A DNA stretch of 64,000 nucleotides. Origin: Pseudomonas sp. MAG733B (GTDB lineage Bacteria > Pseudomonadota > Gammaproteobacteria > Pseudomonadales > Pseudomonadaceae). The stretch is from assembly GCF_036884845.1 (NCBI RefSeq), contig NZ_CP145732.1, forward strand, positions 6,480,501 through 6,544,500, given 5' to 3'. Each line of letters opens with the position of its first letter. Position 1 is the stretch's first letter. This document shows positions 39,038 through 45,598 of this stretch, one piece after another. The notes under the pieces are model-generated. The model saw nothing but the letters and a program-made list of their open reading frames with translations, ran no database searches and had not been told where the DNA came from. The position numbers and the translations under genes were made by a program.

Positions 39038-39592
39038 ATGGCCAAGCAAGCACTCATCGTAGTCGATATCCAAAACGACTACTTCCCTCAAGGCAAGTGG
39101 CCGCTGGTCGGTGCCGATGCCGCCGCAGACAACGCCGTCCGCTTGCTCAAGGCCTTCCGCGAGGCCGGTGATTCGGTGGTGCACATCCGCCACGAGTTCA
39201 CCTCACCGGACGCACCGTTTTTCACCCCGAACTCCGAAGGCGCCAAGCTGCACCCCAAAGTCCTCAACCAGGGCAACGAGCCGGTGGTACTCAAGCACTT
39301 CGTCAACTCGTTCCGCGAAACCGAACTGCAATCAATCCTCGATGAGCAAGGCGTCAAGGAACTGGTGGTCGTCGGCAGCATGAGCCACATGTGCGTCGAC
39401 GGTATCACCCGCGCCGCCAATGATCTGGGCTACAGCGTGATTGTGATCCACGATGCCTGTGCCTCCCGTGACCTGGAGTTCAACGGCACGACCGTTCCGG
39501 CCGCCCATGTACATGCCGCGTTCATGTCGGCTCTGGGTTTCGCCTACGCCAATGTGATTTCCACCGACGAATACCTGAACGCCAGCCGCTGA
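39038..39592 (+). CDS. Isochorismatase-family cysteine hydrolase
   Basis: 184 residues from the ATG at 39038 with GAGG upstream. The catalytic triad of the family is visible: Asp in VVDIQNDYFPQG, Lys in VVLKHFVNSF and Cys in VVGSMSHMCVDGITRAA, with the cis-peptide SMSHM. Such enzymes hydrolyse amides or imides, for example nicotinamide, biuret or isatin. It is divergent from the GlxA-type regulator, which probably controls it. A terminator follows. Confidence 0.9.
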   Translation: MAKQALIVVDIQNDYFPQGKWPLVGADAAADNAVRLLKAFREAGDSVVHIRHEFTSPDAPFFTPNSEGAKLHPKVLNQGNEPVVLKHFVNSFRETELQSILDEQGVKELVVVGSMSHMCVDGITRAANDLGYSVIVIHDACASRDLEFNGTTVPAAHVHAAFMSALGFAYANVISTDEYLNASR

Positions 39593-39611
39593 TCAATCCG
39601 TCGAAAGACCC

Positions 39612-39639
39612 AAGGCCCGCCTCGTCGCGGGCCTTTTTG
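39612..39639 (+). terminator. Rho-independent terminator of the cysteine hydrolase gene
   Basis: AAGGCCCGC...GCGGGCCTTTTTG forms an 8-9 pair GC-rich stem and a five-T tract just after the stop codon. Confidence 0.87.
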
Positions 39640-39653
39640 TGGGCGGTCATAAA

Positions 39654-39715
39654 ATCTCACGCGTGAGCCATTGATGGCACTCTGATTCCGCTGTAGGGTT
39701 GCTCACGCGTGAGAT
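39654..39715 (+). promoter_or_regulatory. Twin palindrome operator and sigma70-like promoter of the yjf/pspA operon
   Basis: The 12-bp perfect palindrome CTCACGCGTGAG occurs at 39656-39667 and again at 39702-39713, centres 46 bp apart. With flanking bases the two sites form an inverted pair (ATCTCACGCGTGAGC and GCTCACGCGTGAGAT). Between them TTGATG (39671-39676), a 17-bp spacer and TAGGGT (39694-39699) form a weak -35/-10, so the second palindrome would cover the start point near 39706. This looks like repressor control, regulator unidentified. Confidence 0.6.
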
Positions 39716-39736
39716 GTTCACAACGGAGTCACTGCC

Positions 39737-40423
39737 ATGAAAAGCCGCTCCCCGTCAGGCCCGCCTGTCGAGCCTGCCGTATCAAAGAGCCCAAAGGGAG
39801 AGCGCGCAAAACCGTCCGCGAAAAAACCGTCGAGCTTCTACATGAAGCAGATGCGCGCGGGTCTGGCAGCCGCCGGTTATGTGAAACACGAAACTTGGGT
39901 GCTTCCCGAAAACCGAAGCTTGCTCAAGCAGATGGAGCAACAGCTACGCCAACCGATTCTGGCTGGCTCATTCATGTCGGAGAATTACATGAGCGCAGGC
40001 AACAACTGGAACATCGACAGCCTCTTCAACGCCCTCAAGGCCCTGGACGAGGTGGCTTCGCAAGAAATCACGCTGTCCCTGATCCAGAGCTCCGAGCCCA
40101 GCATCAAACTGGAAATGAACGAGTTTGGCGGTCTGCCGATTCACATCGCCGTAGCCGGTGATCAGATCATCGTCGATACCGTTCTGGTCGATGTCGAATC
40201 CATCAATGACGTGCCGAAATTCAATGATGCCGTGCTGCGCAGCCGGGAAATGTTCCCGCTGTCGTCGATCGGTATCGAGTCCATGCCGAACGGGCAGATC
40301 GTCTACAACATGTTCGGCGCGTTGAGTTCCGATTCCAGCCTGACCAACGTGGTGACCGAGGTGAAAACCCTGGTCGACAACGTCCAGCGTGCCAGCGAAG
40401 CCTTCGAACGCTTCTTCAAGTAA
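39737..40423 (+). CDS. yjfI: DUF2170 family protein (YjfI-like)
   Basis: 228 residues. The N-terminal 35 residues are a charged, proline- and lysine-rich tail. The core (LLKQMEQQLRQPILAGSF, WNIDSLFNALKALDEVASQEITLSL, GLPIHIAVAGDQIIVD) looks like an alpha-beta fold of the DUF2170/YjfI family, of unknown function. It is the first gene of the PspA operon, and the same gene stands in front of the PspA paralogue yjfJ in E. coli. A stress-chaperone-like role is conceivable, but unproven. Confidence 0.82.
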   Translation: MKSRSPSGPPVEPAVSKSPKGERAKPSAKKPSSFYMKQMRAGLAAAGYVKHETWVLPENRSLLKQMEQQLRQPILAGSFMSENYMSAGNNWNIDSLFNALKALDEVASQEITLSLIQSSEPSIKLEMNEFGGLPIHIAVAGDQIIVDTVLVDVESINDVPKFNDAVLRSREMFPLSSIGIESMPNGQIVYNMFGALSSDSSLTNVVTEVKTLVDNVQRASEAFERFFK

Positions 40424-40445
40424 TCATCAGGAAAGGAATGCCCAC

Positions 40446-41144
40446 ATGACACAGTCCATCTGGAGCAAGTTGTTCACCGCATTGCGCGGCGGCGCCACCG
40501 AAGTCGGCGAAGCCATCGTCGATCAACAGGCCCTGCGCATTCTCGACCAGGAAATCCGCGAAGCCGATAGCGCCCTGGCCAACGCTCGCCGCGAGCTGGT
40601 CACCATCATGGCCAAGCACAAACTGTCGGCTGATCGCGTCAGCGAGTACAACGCCAAGATCAAGGACCTGGAGTCCAAGGCCATGGCCGCGATCCAGGCC
40701 AACCGCGAAGACCTGGCGATGGAAGTGGCCGAAGCCATTTCGACCCTGACCAATGAGCTGGATGTCGAGCAGAAACAAGCCACCGAGTTCGGCACCTACG
40801 CGGAAAACATGCGCAAGGACATCAACAAAGCCGAAGCACGAATCAAAAGCCTGCGCCAGCAAGTGGACATGGCCAAGGCGCGCGAAAGCGTTCAAAAAGC
40901 CCAGGTCAGCGCTTCGATCGCCAGTGGCGGCGCCAACGGCAAGCTGGAAACCGCGGTTGGCACCCTCAACCGCCTTCAGGCCAAGCAACAGCAACGCGCC
41001 GCCGAACTGAACGCTCAGGATGAACTGGCAGAAGCTTCGACCGGTAACGATCTGGAGCGCAAACTTCGCGAGGCCGGCATTACGCCAAACGAAGGCAGCG
41101 CCAATGCGATCCTGGAACGCCTGAAGAAACAATCGGCCGAGTAA
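40446..41144 (+). CDS. yjfJ: PspA/IM30 family protein (YjfJ-like)
   Basis: 232 residues from the ATG at 40446. The sequence is almost all alpha-helical coiled coil with the family start SIWSKLFTALRGGATEVGEAIVDQQALRIL and conserved long helices. PspA proteins form rings or rods on stressed inner membranes, bind phospholipids and preserve proton-motive force. The typical N-terminal amphipathic helix (about 1-20) is short but present. It is 22 bp after yjfI. The regulator PspF and the PspBC sensors are not in the window, so this copy is likely controlled by the palindromic operator upstream. Confidence 0.93.
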   Translation: MTQSIWSKLFTALRGGATEVGEAIVDQQALRILDQEIREADSALANARRELVTIMAKHKLSADRVSEYNAKIKDLESKAMAAIQANREDLAMEVAEAISTLTNELDVEQKQATEFGTYAENMRKDINKAEARIKSLRQQVDMAKARESVQKAQVSASIASGGANGKLETAVGTLNRLQAKQQQRAAELNAQDELAEASTGNDLERKLREAGITPNEGSANAILERLKKQSAE

Positions 41145-41157
41145 TCGAAGCCGCACC

Positions 41158-41256
41158 TGTAGGAGCGAGCATGCTCGCGAAAAACCTGAGAACGCCACGG
41201 GGTATCAGGCTTTGCGCGTCATCGTTAACGACCATCGCGAGCTTGCTCGCTCCTAC
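41158..41256. repeat. REP pair 13 (inverted)
   Basis: TGTAGGAGCGAGCATGCTCG and CGAGCTTGCTCGCTCCTAC around a 60-bp centre. It lies inside the operon, between yjfJ and the rhomboid gene, and is the only such insertion in the yjf cluster. Confidence 0.87.
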
Positions 41257-41274
41257 GTCAAGTCGAGGTCAAGG

Positions 41275-41838
41275 ATGGATGCCCTGAAGGGTTTCAAGAC
41301 AGTCGCCGCTCTGGCGATCTTCATGGTTGTGCTGCAATTGCTCAATGCAGCGACCGGCTACAGTCTTGTTGCCTTCGGCCTGGTGCCGAGAACGATGCAC
41401 GGACTGATCGGCATCCTCACCTCGCCTTTCCTGCACGGCTCCTTCGCTCACTTGAGCGCCAACCTGATCGCCTTTCTGATACTGGGCACTCTGGTCATGG
41501 TCGAAGGCCGCAACCGCTTCTTCACCGTCAGCGCCATCATCATTTTGCTGGGCGGCTCGCTGGTCTGGCTGTTCGGTTTTTCCGGCTATCACATCGGTGC
41601 CAGCGGCTGGGTGTTCGGGTTGTGGGCGTACCTGCTGGCGCGCGCATGGTTCCAGAGGAGTTGGGGCAATCTGCTGACGGCCAGTGTTGTGACGTTGCTG
41701 TATGGCGGCCTGATCTTTGGCTTCCTGCCCCGCCAGGGCGTTTCTTTCGAAGGGCATATCTTTGGTGCGTTCGCCGGTTTTATTGCGGCCAAGGTACTTT
41801 CCCCCGCGTCGCGCACTCGGTTAAATGCCGCCCCATAA
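41275..41838 (+). CDS. Rhomboid-type intramembrane serine protease
   Basis: 187 residues from the ATG at 41275 (an upstream frame reading reaches into the REP). Six membrane segments are seen. The catalytic serine is in GASGWVFG, the partner histidine in FEGHIFGAFAGF, and the oxyanion Asn in HLSANLIAF. These positions match GlpG-type rhomboids. It cleaves proteins inside the membrane. This gene is not part of the E. coli yjf locus, so its place between pspA and yjfK suggests a membrane-stress partner. Confidence 0.88.
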   Translation: MDALKGFKTVAALAIFMVVLQLLNAATGYSLVAFGLVPRTMHGLIGILTSPFLHGSFAHLSANLIAFLILGTLVMVEGRNRFFTVSAIIILLGGSLVWLFGFSGYHIGASGWVFGLWAYLLARAWFQRSWGNLLTASVVTLLYGGLIFGFLPRQGVSFEGHIFGAFAGFIAAKVLSPASRTRLNAAP

Positions 41839-41889
41839 ACGCATTTGAATGTGTCTGCATCGCCTCTTCTCCCCTCAAGGAAGTCTTCA

Positions 41890-42570
41890 ATGGGATGGTT
41901 TAAACAGATGATGGGGCTCGAGGCTCCAAACTCGAACTCGAAGTGGATCGCCAATGACAACGCGCCACTCAATGAGTCGCCCGTCGGCCCGCTGGGCCTG
42001 GCATCAGGCAAAAGCGTGATGTTCGACTCGACCCTGACCTTGCTGCTCGACGGCAAAACCTCCGTGGCCGTGCCCGCCGCCCAGCAGATCTGGAGCGCCG
42101 GCACCATCGAGCTCGGGCAATCGGCCTGGCTGTCACGCTACTACATGAACAACGAAGATCACTGGCTGCAAGTGCACACCACCGGCGATATCGCCGGGCA
42201 GGTCGAGTCGGTGATCCTGTTCAACTACCTCGACTACGTGACCATCAGCAGTGAAGCGGAGCTGCGCCGACTGGCCGGCCCCGACAGCCTGATCGGCTTG
42301 CCGACCTACAGCCATAACGGTGTCGAATACACCCGTGAATGGGGAACCGAGTCTGGCCAGACCGAACTCGTGGCGCTGAGCGAGCAGTTGAGCAACCCGG
42401 ATCAGACCTACCGCATCGAGCACCACTCGATGCTGTACGCCCGCGACACCGGCCTGACCAACCGCCGGGAATTCCTGCTGTTCTCCGTCGAAGAAGACGC
42501 CGAAGGCAGCATCAGCTTGAGCACTTCGCTAGGCATCTCGCTGTACACCACCGACCTGACCATTTACTAA
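41890..42570 (+). CDS. yjfK: DUF2491 family protein (YjfK-like)
   Basis: 226 residues from the ATG at 41890. The N-terminus MGWFKQMMGLEAPNSNS is followed by a largely beta-type cytoplasmic sequence (VMFDSTLTLLLDGKTSVAVPAAQQIWSAGTI, EHHSMLYARDTG). No membrane segment or catalytic motif is visible. The family is found next to DUF350 and PspA in E. coli and many proteobacteria. Function unknown. Confidence 0.83.
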   Translation: MGWFKQMMGLEAPNSNSKWIANDNAPLNESPVGPLGLASGKSVMFDSTLTLLLDGKTSVAVPAAQQIWSAGTIELGQSAWLSRYYMNNEDHWLQVHTTGDIAGQVESVILFNYLDYVTISSEAELRRLAGPDSLIGLPTYSHNGVEYTREWGTESGQTELVALSEQLSNPDQTYRIEHHSMLYARDTGLTNRREFLLFSVEEDAEGSISLSTSLGISLYTTDLTIY

Positions 42571-42582
42571 ACAGGAACAATC

Positions 42583-43011
42583 ATGCTCGAAGCACTCTCC
42601 ATTTCCCTGAACCAAACCGCGGTCCTCGGGTTTGTTTCGTACATTGTCGGTGCGGCCGTGTTGTTCGCCCTGTTCCAGTTCATCTACACCCGAATCACGC
42701 CGCACAAGGAATTTGAACTGATCCGTTCGGGGAACGTTGCCGCCGCGATCGCCCTGGGCGGTGCCATCGTCGGTTTCGCCATTCCGGCGAGCAATGTCAT
42801 TGCCTACTCGATCAGCATCCTCGACTTCGTCGTCTGGGCAGTGATTGCTGCGTTCGTCCAGTTGCTGGCATTCCTGATGACCAGCCTGGTGCTCAAAGGC
42901 GCGTCCGAACGCATCCAGAAAGGTGAAATCGCTGCAGGCATCTACGTCGCGGCAGTGGCCATCAGCGTCGGCATGTTGAACGCCGCGTGCATGACCCCTT
43001 CCCAGAACTGA
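42583..43011 (+). CDS. yjfL: DUF350 integral membrane protein (YjfL-like)
   Basis: 142 residues forming two repeated halves with about four membrane helices (VLGFVSYIVGAAVLFALFQF, AAIALGGAIVGFAIPASNVIAYSI, VWAVIAAFVQLLAFLMTSLVL, AGIYVAAVAISVGMLNAA). DUF350 proteins are small membrane proteins of unknown function, often beside PspA-like or glutathionylspermidine-synthase-like genes. Only 12 bp separate it from yjfK. Confidence 0.88.
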   Translation: MLEALSISLNQTAVLGFVSYIVGAAVLFALFQFIYTRITPHKEFELIRSGNVAAAIALGGAIVGFAIPASNVIAYSISILDFVVWAVIAAFVQLLAFLMTSLVLKGASERIQKGEIAAGIYVAAVAISVGMLNAACMTPSQN

Positions 43012-43027
43012 TCGCGCGGAGACCCGG

Positions 43028-43738
43028 ATGAAACGAAGCAAATACGTTCAGCTCTCGCTGGCCGCGTCGGTCGCCATGGCGATATCAGGCTGCGGGCCAA
43101 CGGAAAAAACCTATTCGGTACAGAAGAAATACAACTTCCAGTCCGTTCAGCAATGCGCCGACGAAAAACTGCCGGTAGACGTCTGCTCCGACGCCTACAT
43201 GACCGCCCTCGCCGAGCATCGTCGCCTTGCGCCGGTGTACGACAACCAGGCCGATTGCGACGCCGACTTCGTCGCCGACTGGTGCCAACAGGACTCCGCC
43301 GGCAAGTTCATCCCAAGGCTGGGCGGTTTCGAACTGACGGCCGATGGCCAGGTGACGCAATCCCAGGTGGACGCTGCCAAAGCGCAATTGCCTGCCGAAC
43401 AAGCGAACAGTGGCGGCTCAGGCTTCTCCACCGGCAGCCTGCTGACCGGCCTGTTGATCGGCAACATGTTGAGCAACAACCGCAACAGCTACTACTCCGA
43501 ACCGGTGTACCGCTATCGCGATGATCGCGGCAACTATGCCTCTTCGACGCTCGGCCAGCGGATTTCCAAGGGCACGACGTTTACCCGGTCCGACCAGGCG
43601 AAGTACGGACGCGGCTACAGCACCGCAAGCACCCGCTCGGCCAGCAAGCCGATCTCAGTGGCCTCCTCCACCTCCCGCGGCGGTTTCGGCAGCAAGGCCA
43701 GTGCGCGCAGTGGCTGGGGCGGCGGATCGAGCAGTTAA
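43028..43738 (+). CDS. yjfM: DUF1190 family lipoprotein (YjfM-like)
   Basis: 236 residues. The signal ends with the lipobox ISGC (C22 lipidated). Further paired cysteines occur in the mature part (CADEKLPVDVC, and CDADFVADWC). The C-terminal half is low-complexity, rich in Ser, Tyr and Gly, with a short hydrophobic glycine/leucine stretch (SLLTGLLIGNML). Family of unknown function, often next to the ATP-grasp gene that follows 11 bp later. Confidence 0.83.
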   Translation: MKRSKYVQLSLAASVAMAISGCGPTEKTYSVQKKYNFQSVQQCADEKLPVDVCSDAYMTALAEHRRLAPVYDNQADCDADFVADWCQQDSAGKFIPRLGGFELTADGQVTQSQVDAAKAQLPAEQANSGGSGFSTGSLLTGLLIGNMLSNNRNSYYSEPVYRYRDDRGNYASSTLGQRISKGTTFTRSDQAKYGRGYSTASTRSASKPISVASSTSRGGFGSKASARSGWGGGSSS

Positions 43739-43749
43739 GGAGCCGGGCC

Positions 43750-44907
43750 ATGAAGAAGATCCACTGCGCAGAACGGCATGACTGGAAACAGACTGCCGAA
43801 AGCCTCGGCTTTCTGTTTCACACCATTGACGATGAACCCTATTGGGACGAGAGCGCGTATTACCAGTTCACGCTCAAGCAGATCGAAAACGATCTGGAAG
43901 ACCCGACCACCGAGATCCATGAGATGTGCATGGACCTGGTGGCCCGCGTGGTTCAGAGCGAAGAATTGCTGGAACGCCTGAGCATTCCTGCGCCGTTCTA
44001 CGACCTGATTCGTACGTCTTGGCTCGAAGGCCACCCACATCTGTACGGGCGCTTGGATTTTTCCTACAACGGTAACGGACCCGCCAAGTTGCTGGAGCTG
44101 AACTACGACACGCCCACCAGCCTGTACGAGGCGGCGGCGTTTCAGTGGGGCTGGCTGGAGCAATGCATCGAGCGCGGTTTGCTGCCCAAGCATGCCGATC
44201 AGTTCAACAGCATCGACACCAAACTGCATCAGGCTTTCGCCCAACTGCAGCTCAAACAGCCCTTTTACTTCGCCTCGATGAAAGACTCGATGGAGGACAA
44301 AGGCACCACCGATTACCTGCGCCTGGTCGCAGAAAAAGTCGGTATCGAATCACGGCATATCGACATCGAAGACATCGGACTCACCAGCGACGGACGCTTC
44401 GTCGACCTCGAAGATCGATGGATTCCTCACCTGTTCAAGCTGCATGCCTGGGAGTTCATCTTTCATGAACCCTTTGGCGCGGCGATCGCCCAGAGTGACA
44501 CGCAGTTTTTCGAGCCGGCATGGAAATCGATCATCTCCAACAAAGGCATCCTGCCGTTGCTGTGGGAGTTCAACAAAGGCCATCCGAACCTGCTCGCCGC
44601 CCATCTCGATACCGACCCGGGCAAAGCGGTGCCCAAGGGTTGGGTGCGCAAGCCGTTCTTCTCGCGGGAAGGCGCCAACATCGAACTGCAAACCGCTGAC
44701 GGCCTGATCGTCAAACAGGATGGGCCCTACACGGATGCACCCTTCATCCTGCAGGAGTTCGCCCCGCTTCCGAAGTTCGGCGACAGCTATACACTGATCG
44801 GCTCCTGGGTGATCGCCGATCAGGCGGCGGGTATTGGTGTGCGGGAAGACAACAGCCTGATCACCAAGGATTCGAGCCGGTTCTTGCCGCACCTGATTCT
44901 CGACTGA
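43750..44907 (+). CDS. yjfC: Glutathionylspermidine synthase-like ATP-grasp protein (YjfC-like)
   Basis: 385 residues with the preATP-grasp fold of the C-terminal synthetase domain of GspS: DEPYWDESAYYQFT, LLELNYDTPTSLYEAA (a conserved substrate-site segment), FEPAWKSIISNKGILPLLWEF, KPFFSREGANIEL and FILQEFAPLPKFG. No amidase domain is attached. Members outside GspS may ligate amines or amino acids to peptides or lipids; the substrate here is unknown. It closes the operon and is followed by a terminator. Confidence 0.88.
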   Translation: MKKIHCAERHDWKQTAESLGFLFHTIDDEPYWDESAYYQFTLKQIENDLEDPTTEIHEMCMDLVARVVQSEELLERLSIPAPFYDLIRTSWLEGHPHLYGRLDFSYNGNGPAKLLELNYDTPTSLYEAAAFQWGWLEQCIERGLLPKHADQFNSIDTKLHQAFAQLQLKQPFYFASMKDSMEDKGTTDYLRLVAEKVGIESRHIDIEDIGLTSDGRFVDLEDRWIPHLFKLHAWEFIFHEPFGAAIAQSDTQFFEPAWKSIISNKGILPLLWEFNKGHPNLLAAHLDTDPGKAVPKGWVRKPFFSREGANIELQTADGLIVKQDGPYTDAPFILQEFAPLPKFGDSYTLIGSWVIADQAAGIGVREDNSLITKDSSRFLPHLILD

Positions 44908-44920
44908 ATCCATCGCCATG

Positions 44921-44957
44921 AAAAAGCCCAGCGCCTCTAAAGCCCTGGGCTTTTTTT
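44921..44957 (+). terminator. Rho-independent terminator of the yjf operon
   Basis: AAAAAGCCCAG...CTGGGCTTTTTTT: a six-pair GC stem (plus A/T) and seven Ts, 13 bases after the yjfC stop. Confidence 0.85.
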
Positions 44958-45097
44958 GTTCCCACGTTTGGACGATCTGCACCGAACGCAATACCGCCAG
45001 AACCCAAATGAATCAGGCCAGCGCCAACAATAGCGTCACTCCCAAGATGAACCGCGGGGGCTTAACTCTTTAGCCAAACTCACTGGAAGCCTGAACA

Positions 45098-45598
45098 ATG
45101 AACACTTCGAATATCAGCACTGTCAGCGCGTCGAACACCTCATCGCTCGGCGTTAAAACCACAGCGATTGGGACCTACGGCATCTATTTCGCCCTCGCCG
45201 TCATCTACTTCTGGTTCGGTGGAATGAAATTCACCCACTACGAAGCAGAAGGTCTGGTTCCACTGGTGAGCAACAGCCCATTGCTGGGTTGGGTGTATCA
45301 GATCTTCAGCGTCGATCTGTTCTCCAGCCTGCTGGGGGTGCTTGAGGCCTCGATTGGCGTGTTGATCGCCGGCCGCCTGCTGTCGCCGAAACTTTCACTG
45401 ATTGGGGGCGCTTTGTCCGCCGGGCTGTTCGTCACGACATTGAGCTTCATGTTCTCGACGCCTGGCGTGATCGAACCCGGCCTCGGCTTCCCGGCCATCT
45501 CGGTTGCACCGGGCCAGTTCCTCCTCAAGGACCTTGGATTGCTTGCCGCCTCCCTCTTCGTGGCGGGTCATTCCCTGACCAAGCTGGAAACGCCTTGA
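45098..45598 (+). CDS. DUF417 family membrane protein (RclC-like)
   Basis: 166 residues with four membrane helices (TYGIYFALAVIYFWFGGMKF, SPLLGWVYQIFSV, LSLIGGALSAGLFVTTLSFM, LLKDLGLLAASLFVAG). DUF417 includes RclC of E. coli, part of the reactive-chlorine resistance regulon. The convergent AraC neighbour resembles RclR. The N-terminal 25 residues are serine- and threonine-rich. Upstream 44958-45097 has no other gene. Confidence 0.82.
   Translation: MNTSNISTVSASNTSSLGVKTTAIGTYGIYFALAVIYFWFGGMKFTHYEAEGLVPLVSNSPLLGWVYQIFSVDLFSSLLGVLEASIGVLIAGRLLSPKLSLIGGALSAGLFVTTLSFMFSTPGVIEPGLGFPAISVAPGQFLLKDLGLLAASLFVAGHSLTKLETP

Follow-up and report, generated by a model that had tools for sequence, protein, structure and literature searches.

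Operons that pair a CesT/Tir-like protein with a PspA-family protein have been surveyed by Ravi et al. (2024, PMC11237479), and the third group in the main text of that survey adds an ATP-grasp ligase, DUF350, DUF1190, DUF2491 and a potassium channel to this pair. The operon studied here is of that type, which is already in print and is not new. It lies in a stretch of 64,000 nucleotides (the window; positions 6480501-6544500 of the single-contig genome of Pseudomonas sp. MAG733B, 6,652,015 bases), where seven open reading frames between 39737 and 44907, all on the plus strand, encode proteins like Escherichia coli YjfI, YjfJ, YjfK, YjfL, YjfM and YjfC together with a rhomboid protease. What appears to be new, judging from sequence, is the regulation, with the first gene seeming to encode an overlooked DNA-binding repressor. 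We propose that YjfI is probably a two-part autorepressor of this yjfIJKLMC-type PspA operon, acting with an N-terminal domain (NTD) on paired palindromes and with its DUF2170 domain on the PspA-like protein YjfJ.

In heat-evolved E. coli, yjfIJKL were raised by a promoter deletion (PMC12492005), and the related protein PA3731 (BacB) of Pseudomonas aeruginosa accumulates after osmotic shock (PMC2587700). These are the nearest data for the envelope-stress role that had been suggested for the operon in an earlier reading of the DNA (the original prediction), a role that is plausible. A contact between BacB and BacA, the first product of the bac operon, was predicted at 0.981 (PMC13092808). In a bacA mutant, BacB, BacC and BacD rose 7.2-, 7.9- and 13.5-fold, and two downstream proteins 8.9- and 6.1-fold (PMC10948618). 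In the classical Psp circuit, PspA restrains the activator PspF (PMC2587700).

Two copies of the perfect palindrome CTCACGCGTGAG, starting 46 bp apart at 39656 and 39702, surround the putative promoter of the window operon. Operator 1 (39656-39667) stands directly 5' of the putative -35 box of a sigma70-type promoter (TTGATG-N17-TAGGGT, 39671-39699, plus strand), and Operator 2 (39702-39713) overlaps the predicted transcription start and ends 23 bp before the yjfI start codon; neither palindrome has a strand. The original prediction mentioned neither these palindromes nor the additional domain at the N-terminus of YjfI. The genome contains exactly these two copies of CTCACGCGTGAG, with one-mismatch copies at four other places. 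At least one exact copy was present in 52 of 149 Pseudomonas genus genomes, and the fetched operons of the window clade carry CTCACGCGTGAG sites upstream of yjfI, mostly as pairs 46 bp apart. Where YjfI is more divergent, the operons carry TCACATGTGA or TTACATGTAA in place of CTCACGCGTGAG, and the consensus across relatives is TYACRYGTRA. Among the titles listed by a literature search with the operator strings, none concerned these operons.

Between the two operators, ATTG and TGTAG..T form islands of at least 95% conservation across the 36 loci with a 46-bp pair. The pattern of first operator, TTG, 16-18 bp and TA..GT was found in 46 of 98 loci with a strong NTD; as the pattern needs a site, its count of 0/48 in the other loci is no independent evidence. 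In G270, a genome called P. aeruginosa-like because its protein nearly equals the chain of crystal structure 8q8o, the first site is followed by TTGAAG, 17 bp and TAGTGT, and the second site lies inside the spacer.

The sites accompany the NTD across a set of 169 DUF2170 loci, from which duplicates (L220, L331 and L354) and four rows with no DUF2170 gene in the stretch (L102, L120, L142 and L158) had been removed. This set comprised 61 of the 65 DUF2491-bearing genus genomes (the window among them), namely those with DUF2170 in the stretch, together with all places returned when family, class and phylum samples were searched for DUF2170. The 200 bp upstream of each gene were searched for TYACRYGTRA, exact or with at most one mismatch. 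Among 103 loci with a strong NTD (13 genera), 92 had an exact site, 102 a site with at most one mismatch and 90 at least two such sites, against 0, 6 and 0, respectively, of the 61 loci lacking the NTD (42 genera). Five alphaproteobacterial loci with a weak NTD, kept as a class of their own, gave 1/5 exact and 3/5 with at most one mismatch. Counted by genus, exact sites occurred in 11/13 with the NTD versus 0/42 with none (Fisher 6.5e-10), and one-mismatch sites in 13/13 versus 4/42 (1.6e-9), with two genera containing genes of both kinds. Smaller sets gave 88/96 versus 0/22 exact sites (118 loci) and 90/98 versus 0/45 (146 loci, the weak alphaproteobacterial NTDs L326 and L328 being counted there as "none"); the tree and promoter-pattern counts rest on sets made before the last 23 loci were added. 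In control windows placed 300 bp inside the gene, exact sites occurred in 0/118 cases and one-mismatch sites in 1/118, and 4.2% of random 200-bp windows from the same loci, real sites included, held at least one site with at most one mismatch.

Two Pseudomonadaceae loci without NTD, L159 and L351, nest in a supported NTD group (19 rows, support 99/96) and both are without a site. This suggestive pattern is what coupled losses of NTD and site would give; it is not decisive, because both have long branches. Another DUF2170 gene counted as "none", L360, has a divergent NTD-like start (KVEVYVPERM, E 0.047) and no TYACRYGTRA site.

The centre of the site also follows the protein. When the 103 strong-NTD loci were grouped by the residue after a conserved lysine of the NTD, the 84 exact sites of the His type (46 loci) had the centre GC in 77 cases, AT in 4, GT in 2 and AC in 1, and every one of the 77 GC-centred sites belonged to a His-type gene. 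The centre was AT in 33/33 exact sites of the Arg type (25 loci) and in 48/48 of the Lys type (32 loci). Site spacing was 44-46 in the His type, 21-26 in 30/31 of the Lys type and mixed in the Arg type. The alphaproteobacterial YjfI proteins (L325-L329) have a related, weakly scoring NTD, and in 4/5 the upstream DNA contains stretches, some imperfect, that resemble TACATGTA or TACGCGTA. One genome, G252, combines a bac-type bacA with a complete yjf operon that includes rhomboid and channel (L353 and L195); each has an NTD type and sites of its own, which amounts to a natural test of cross-regulation, and two further genomes of this genus also have two DUF2170 genes.

The yjfI-like gene (39737-40423, plus strand, 228 aa; PF09938, E 1.7e-43) encodes 89 residues ahead of DUF2170, of which approximately residues 30-75 (39824-39961, plus strand) are strongly conserved in alignments, giving an NTD of about 50 residues with the motif GYVKHETWVLPEN. 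AlphaFold predicts a helix at 32-45, an extended segment at 46-56 and a helix at 57-70. Relatives of this NTD align over 36-47 residues with MazE-like proteins (PF11455; best E 5e-4, 20.4 bits, below the gathering cut-off of 22) and with NF041430, UrfF "plasmid repression protein F" (7.6e-6, 25.9 bits, below the cut-off of 100), sharing a pattern of helix, xVxxxWVPxx and helix. It is likely that the NTD binds DNA. When the NTD profile was searched against the PDB, nine matches resulted (E 0.017-1.4), none of which was read as a relative, and fold comparison covered mainly residues 88-228, so that a missing NTD match there is no evidence. The DUF2170 part has the fold of type III secretion chaperones (CesT/Tir) and ExsC-like regulators according to the fold comparison and to PMC10948618. 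The papers listed by a literature search for UrfF were unrelated.

The NTD was found once in the window genome and in 6/274 class genomes, every time in a frame of 211-239 codons; 13 short matches that might have been stand-alone copies proved on inspection to be pieces of YjfI. E. coli YjfI (133 aa) is without the NTD, and the 400 bp upstream of it contain no site, even with one mismatch allowed. NTD-bearing YjfI genes also occur on the large Pseudomonas plasmids NC_009444.1, NZ_CP047261.1 and NZ_CP127046.1, and the plasmid search gave two weak matches in addition.

BacA is 206 aa long in the protein collection (P0213), and the crystallized chain 8q8o consists of residues 61-206. PA3732 was given as 16 kDa (PMC2587700), which fits a start at Met60; thus the BacA product studied as a protein seems to be without the NTD. 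The published BacA start appears to be 59 codons too far downstream.

In the circuit that we propose, the NTD of YjfI would bind the TYACRYGTRA pair around the promoter, probably as two dimers, and YjfI on both sites would block the promoter. The CesT/Tir-like DUF2170 domain would bind YjfJ, which would compete for YjfI, most likely after it has assembled on a stressed or damaged membrane; YjfI would then be drawn off the operators, the operon would be switched on and its products would act at the membrane. Contact between the NTD and operator DNA is very probable, given how presence and centre of the sites go with the domain, and repression by YjfI of its own operon is hardly less probable. 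Release through YjfJ is an even question, and that membrane damage serves as the inducing signal might equally prove right or wrong. More widely, on balance we lean towards an unrecognised family of one-component regulators, in which a MazE/UrfF-like DNA-binding domain is joined to a fold of the type III secretion chaperones that senses whether a PspA/ESCRT-III-like protein is free or membrane-bound; in many Proteobacteria such a regulator would control the PspA operon that encodes it, using paired palindromes whose centres vary with the protein. In P. aeruginosa such a family would have been missed because annotation placed the gene start about 59 codons too late, so that the solved structure is without the DNA-binding half.

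Several observations weigh against this proposal. The window NTD matches no Pfam family, PF11455 included, and profile comparison of the NTD with two MazE-like sequences gave a probability of 6.6% (P 0.0055). AlphaFold models the NTD with moderate confidence (10-residue means about 50 to 80), no second helix typical of ribbon-helix-helix domains follows in the single-chain models, and the fold of the NTD is unproven. L098 is an NTD gene with no site, 11/103 NTD genes are without an exact site, and one-mismatch sites stand upstream of 6/61 genes without NTD. In a tree built from just the DUF2170 part (99 rows), the NTD is clustered, with 6 label changes of which 2 are forced; the loci are thus far from independent. 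The His, Arg and Lys groups are also clades, so that the matching of residue and site is support and not proof. A generic promoter scan of 39400-45300 gave no promoter, the proposed one included, and a sigma54 promoter (-24/-12) has been proposed upstream of bacA by two papers (PMC10948618, PMC2587700).

Among other explanations, it is unlikely, though it deserves the most weight, that the seven genes are mere neighbours of mixed function, the operator serving only yjfI and yjfJ and the rest being transcribed from internal promoters. An inverted pair at approximately 41158-41256, with no strand and seen by sequence inspection, which we take to be of the repetitive extragenic palindromic (REP) type, divides the run ahead of the rhomboid gene; the rhomboid/channel slot is variable, and DUF2491, DUF350 and DUF1190 are more diverged in many relatives with an empty slot. 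Against this, the order from yjfK to yjfC is repeated across genus loci and in E. coli, and RT-PCR (reverse transcription PCR) gave products over every gap tested in the bac operon (PMC10948618), though the downstream genes of bac differ. The whole gene order recurs over the fetched Pseudomonas genus loci, in a comparison that scored only genes of the window, and is therefore not chance. The single-module reading of the original prediction is supported by this conserved order and by the published survey of the operon group (PMC11237479).

Somewhat less likely still is an unrelated regulator, encoded elsewhere, that binds the palindromes, with YjfI serving only as an ExsC-type chaperone or anti-factor, a role suggested for BacA, and the loss of YjfI acting indirectly. 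The DUF2170 fold shared with type III secretion chaperones and ExsC-like regulators (PMC10948618) would suit such a role; however, the operators track the NTD, and the operator centre tracks an NTD residue. The exact operator occurs nowhere else in the genome, so a separate regulator would have this one promoter as its only target.

A sigma54-dependent, PspF-like stress operon, as claimed for bac, with the palindromes as upstream activator sites, is very improbable even though paired sites are usual for enhancer-binding proteins, as Operator 2, ending so close to the start codon and overlapping the promoter end, is unlike an enhancer site, the boxes conserved between the sites are spaced as for sigma70, the published BacA start apparently lies too far downstream, and the Bac proteins go up on bacA loss (PMC10948618). 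Within about 440 bp of G270, the best -24/-12 match agreed at 8/12 positions; it was located where the long BacA reading frame begins.

The proposed autorepressor would head an operon whose composition was largely as the original prediction had stated. All seven named genes were found in the order given on the plus strand, each above its own Pfam cut-off, and the calls of PspA, DUF350 and ATP-grasp were borne out (PF04012, PF03994 and PF03738). The yjfJ-like gene (40446-41144, plus strand, 232 aa) encodes a PspA/IM30 family member by PF04012 only (PspA_IM30, E 2.1e-42), its score against the NCBIfam PspA equivalog TIGR02977 being 24.1 bits, below the cut-off of 242.95. It is followed on the plus strand by the genes for the rhomboid protease (41275-41838, 187 aa; PF01694, E 8.2e-23), the DUF2491 protein YjfK (41890-42570, 226 aa; PF10679, E 5.8e-42), the DUF350 membrane protein YjfL (42583-43011, 142 aa; PF03994, E 1e-35), the DUF1190 lipoprotein YjfM (43028-43738, 236 aa; PF06693, E 1.1e-29) and the ATP-grasp ligase YjfC (43750-44907, 385 aa; PF03738 GSP_synth, E 2.1e-141). 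A terminator-like hairpin with a T tract (44939-44958, plus strand; terminator scan and sequence) stands 3' of the last gene. The start of the rhomboid is likely ATG 41275 and not TTG 41212, which falls within the REP-type element, and that of the DUF2491 gene is probably ATG 41890 instead of TTG 41845. The series is indeed one of plus-strand genes, as had been claimed, but the run is not closely spaced throughout, since the REP-type pair parts the pspA-like gene from the rhomboid; this pair may affect mRNA stability or divide expression inside the operon. E. coli K-12 has the identical order yjfI-J-K-L-M-C without a rhomboid, again as predicted, with identities to the window proteins of 37% for YjfI (DUF2170 part only), 33% for YjfJ, 26% for YjfK, 38% for YjfL, 24% for YjfM and 50% for YjfC. 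Directly downstream lies a gene for a DUF417 membrane protein (45098-45598), weakly RclC-like (87.1 bits, cut-off 275), and the sole above-threshold Rfam match in the window is the Alpha operon ribosome binding site RNA (RF00140, 56797-56892, minus strand).

The rhomboid had rightly been taken for an extra gene, and it is an optional accessory of the operon. Across the 149 genus genomes, DUF2491 was found in 65 and a relative of the window rhomboid in 45, of which 31 sit in the operon, that is, in 31/65 DUF2491-bearing genomes; for this reason the rhomboid was rejected as the central novelty. The remaining 14/45 (L160-L173; 45-55% identity) come from genomes without a DUF2491 match, and the five inspected all lie in other neighbourhoods. 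The window rhomboid has the catalytic GASG serine and the later GHIFG histidine motif, and a GxSG followed by an H..G motif was present in 30/31 operon rhomboids; it scores below the curated cut-offs for rhombosortase (TIGR03902, 25.9 bits, cut-off 84) and GlpG (TIGR04239, 21.3 bits, cut-off 250). In 60 fetched loci other than the window, the slot between yjfJ and yjfK held neither rhomboid nor channel in 26, both in 17, the rhomboid only in 12 and the channel only in 5; the window has the rhomboid only, with no channel frame between yjfJ and yjfK. A channel was counted wherever the stretch contained a TVGYGD-type motif, which says nothing on intactness; such a motif was seen in 22/60 loci having both yjfJ and yjfK. 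Being variable among relatives, the potassium channel was not taken as defining for the operon type.

Cleavage of the DUF1190 lipoprotein by the rhomboid was considered and rejected: the glycine-rich hydrophobic stretch of DUF1190 is kept with and without the rhomboid (23 aligned Pseudomonas rows), and this independence gives cleavage no support. The C-terminal tail SRGGFGxxxxARxxWG (SRGG[FY]GxxxxARxxW) occurs in 61/64 DUF1190 proteins and also in E. coli YjfM, and the proteins end in Gly-Gly in 25/64 cases and in Ser-Ser in 38/64, the window protein among the latter. In 17/64, mostly from empty-slot operons, the first 90 residues contain no lipobox-like motif. The yjfC-like protein is the sole GSP_synth match in the genome, and PF03738 spans its residues 12-383 of 385, without the amidase half. 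E. coli YjfC, its 50% identical counterpart, is named peptide--spermidine ligase by RefSeq, and YjfC and YgiC have been cited as peptidylpolyamine synthetases (PMC12568646). The window protein, called glutathionylspermidine synthase-like in the original prediction, does have the GSP_synth ATP-grasp domain, but its sequence suggests that it is better called peptide-spermidine-ligase-like. That YjfC might spermidinylate the DUF1190 C-terminus is an idea. In 16 empty-slot operons (L127-L129, L132, L138, L143, L144, L146, L147, L150-L153, L155-L157), DUF1190, DUF2491 and DUF350 are 47-50%, 65-70% and 77-81% identical to those of the window, and YjfI, YjfJ and YjfC, at 86-91%, are less diverged than these middle genes, as if the module DUF2491-DUF350-DUF1190 had been exchanged as one unit.

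PspA/Vipp1 proteins remodel membranes in many bacteria. If the proposal is true, it offers a two-protein control loop for PspA operons without PspF, explains the strongest published effect of bacA loss, corrects the gene start behind a deposited structure and provides a signature that can be searched in genomes, the NTD plus paired TYACRYGTRA. An NTD-operator system of this kind was not found in the literature searched, which covered main text and few subscription papers; the main text of PMC10948618 contains none of the terms DNA-binding, operator, palindrom and ribbon.

Compared with the third group of Ravi et al. (PMC11237479), to which E. coli yjfIJKLMC belongs, the window operon has the same DUF2170-PspA pair followed by DUF2491, DUF350, DUF1190 and the GSP_synth ligase, but it has a rhomboid, a word not in the main text of that survey, and no potassium channel. 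Its YjfI has the NTD and paired operators, and the text of the survey on this group mentions neither. The P. aeruginosa bac operon is similar in that its first gene (BacA, PA3732) encodes a DUF2170 protein whose 206-residue form has the same NTD, its second (BacB, PA3731) is PspA-like and paired TYACRYGTRA sites lie upstream in the P. aeruginosa-like G270. In contrast, the bac operon has downstream genes of its own, the NfeD-like PA14_16160 and the SPFH-domain PA14_16180 (PMC13086221), the site spacing in bac operons is mostly 21-26 against 46 in the window, and window YjfI scores 210.8 bits against NCBIfam BacA (NF050185), below the equivalog cut-off of 300. MazE-like (PF11455) and UrfF (NF041430) proteins have a pattern similar to that of the NTD, but the matches are below curated cut-offs and the window NTD is fused to DUF2170. 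As in the classical Psp system (E. coli PspF-PspABC), a PspA-family protein would be tied to operon control. The original prediction had described the operon as without the PspF and PspBC regulators, and PspF, PspB and PspC were indeed absent from the nine proteins of 38.8-45.6 kb, the part of the genome covered by the Pfam scan; yet the first gene itself is likely a dedicated regulator. The proposed circuit would therefore mirror the classical one by analogy, with control not through PspF and sigma54 but through a repressor that is itself the partner of PspA.

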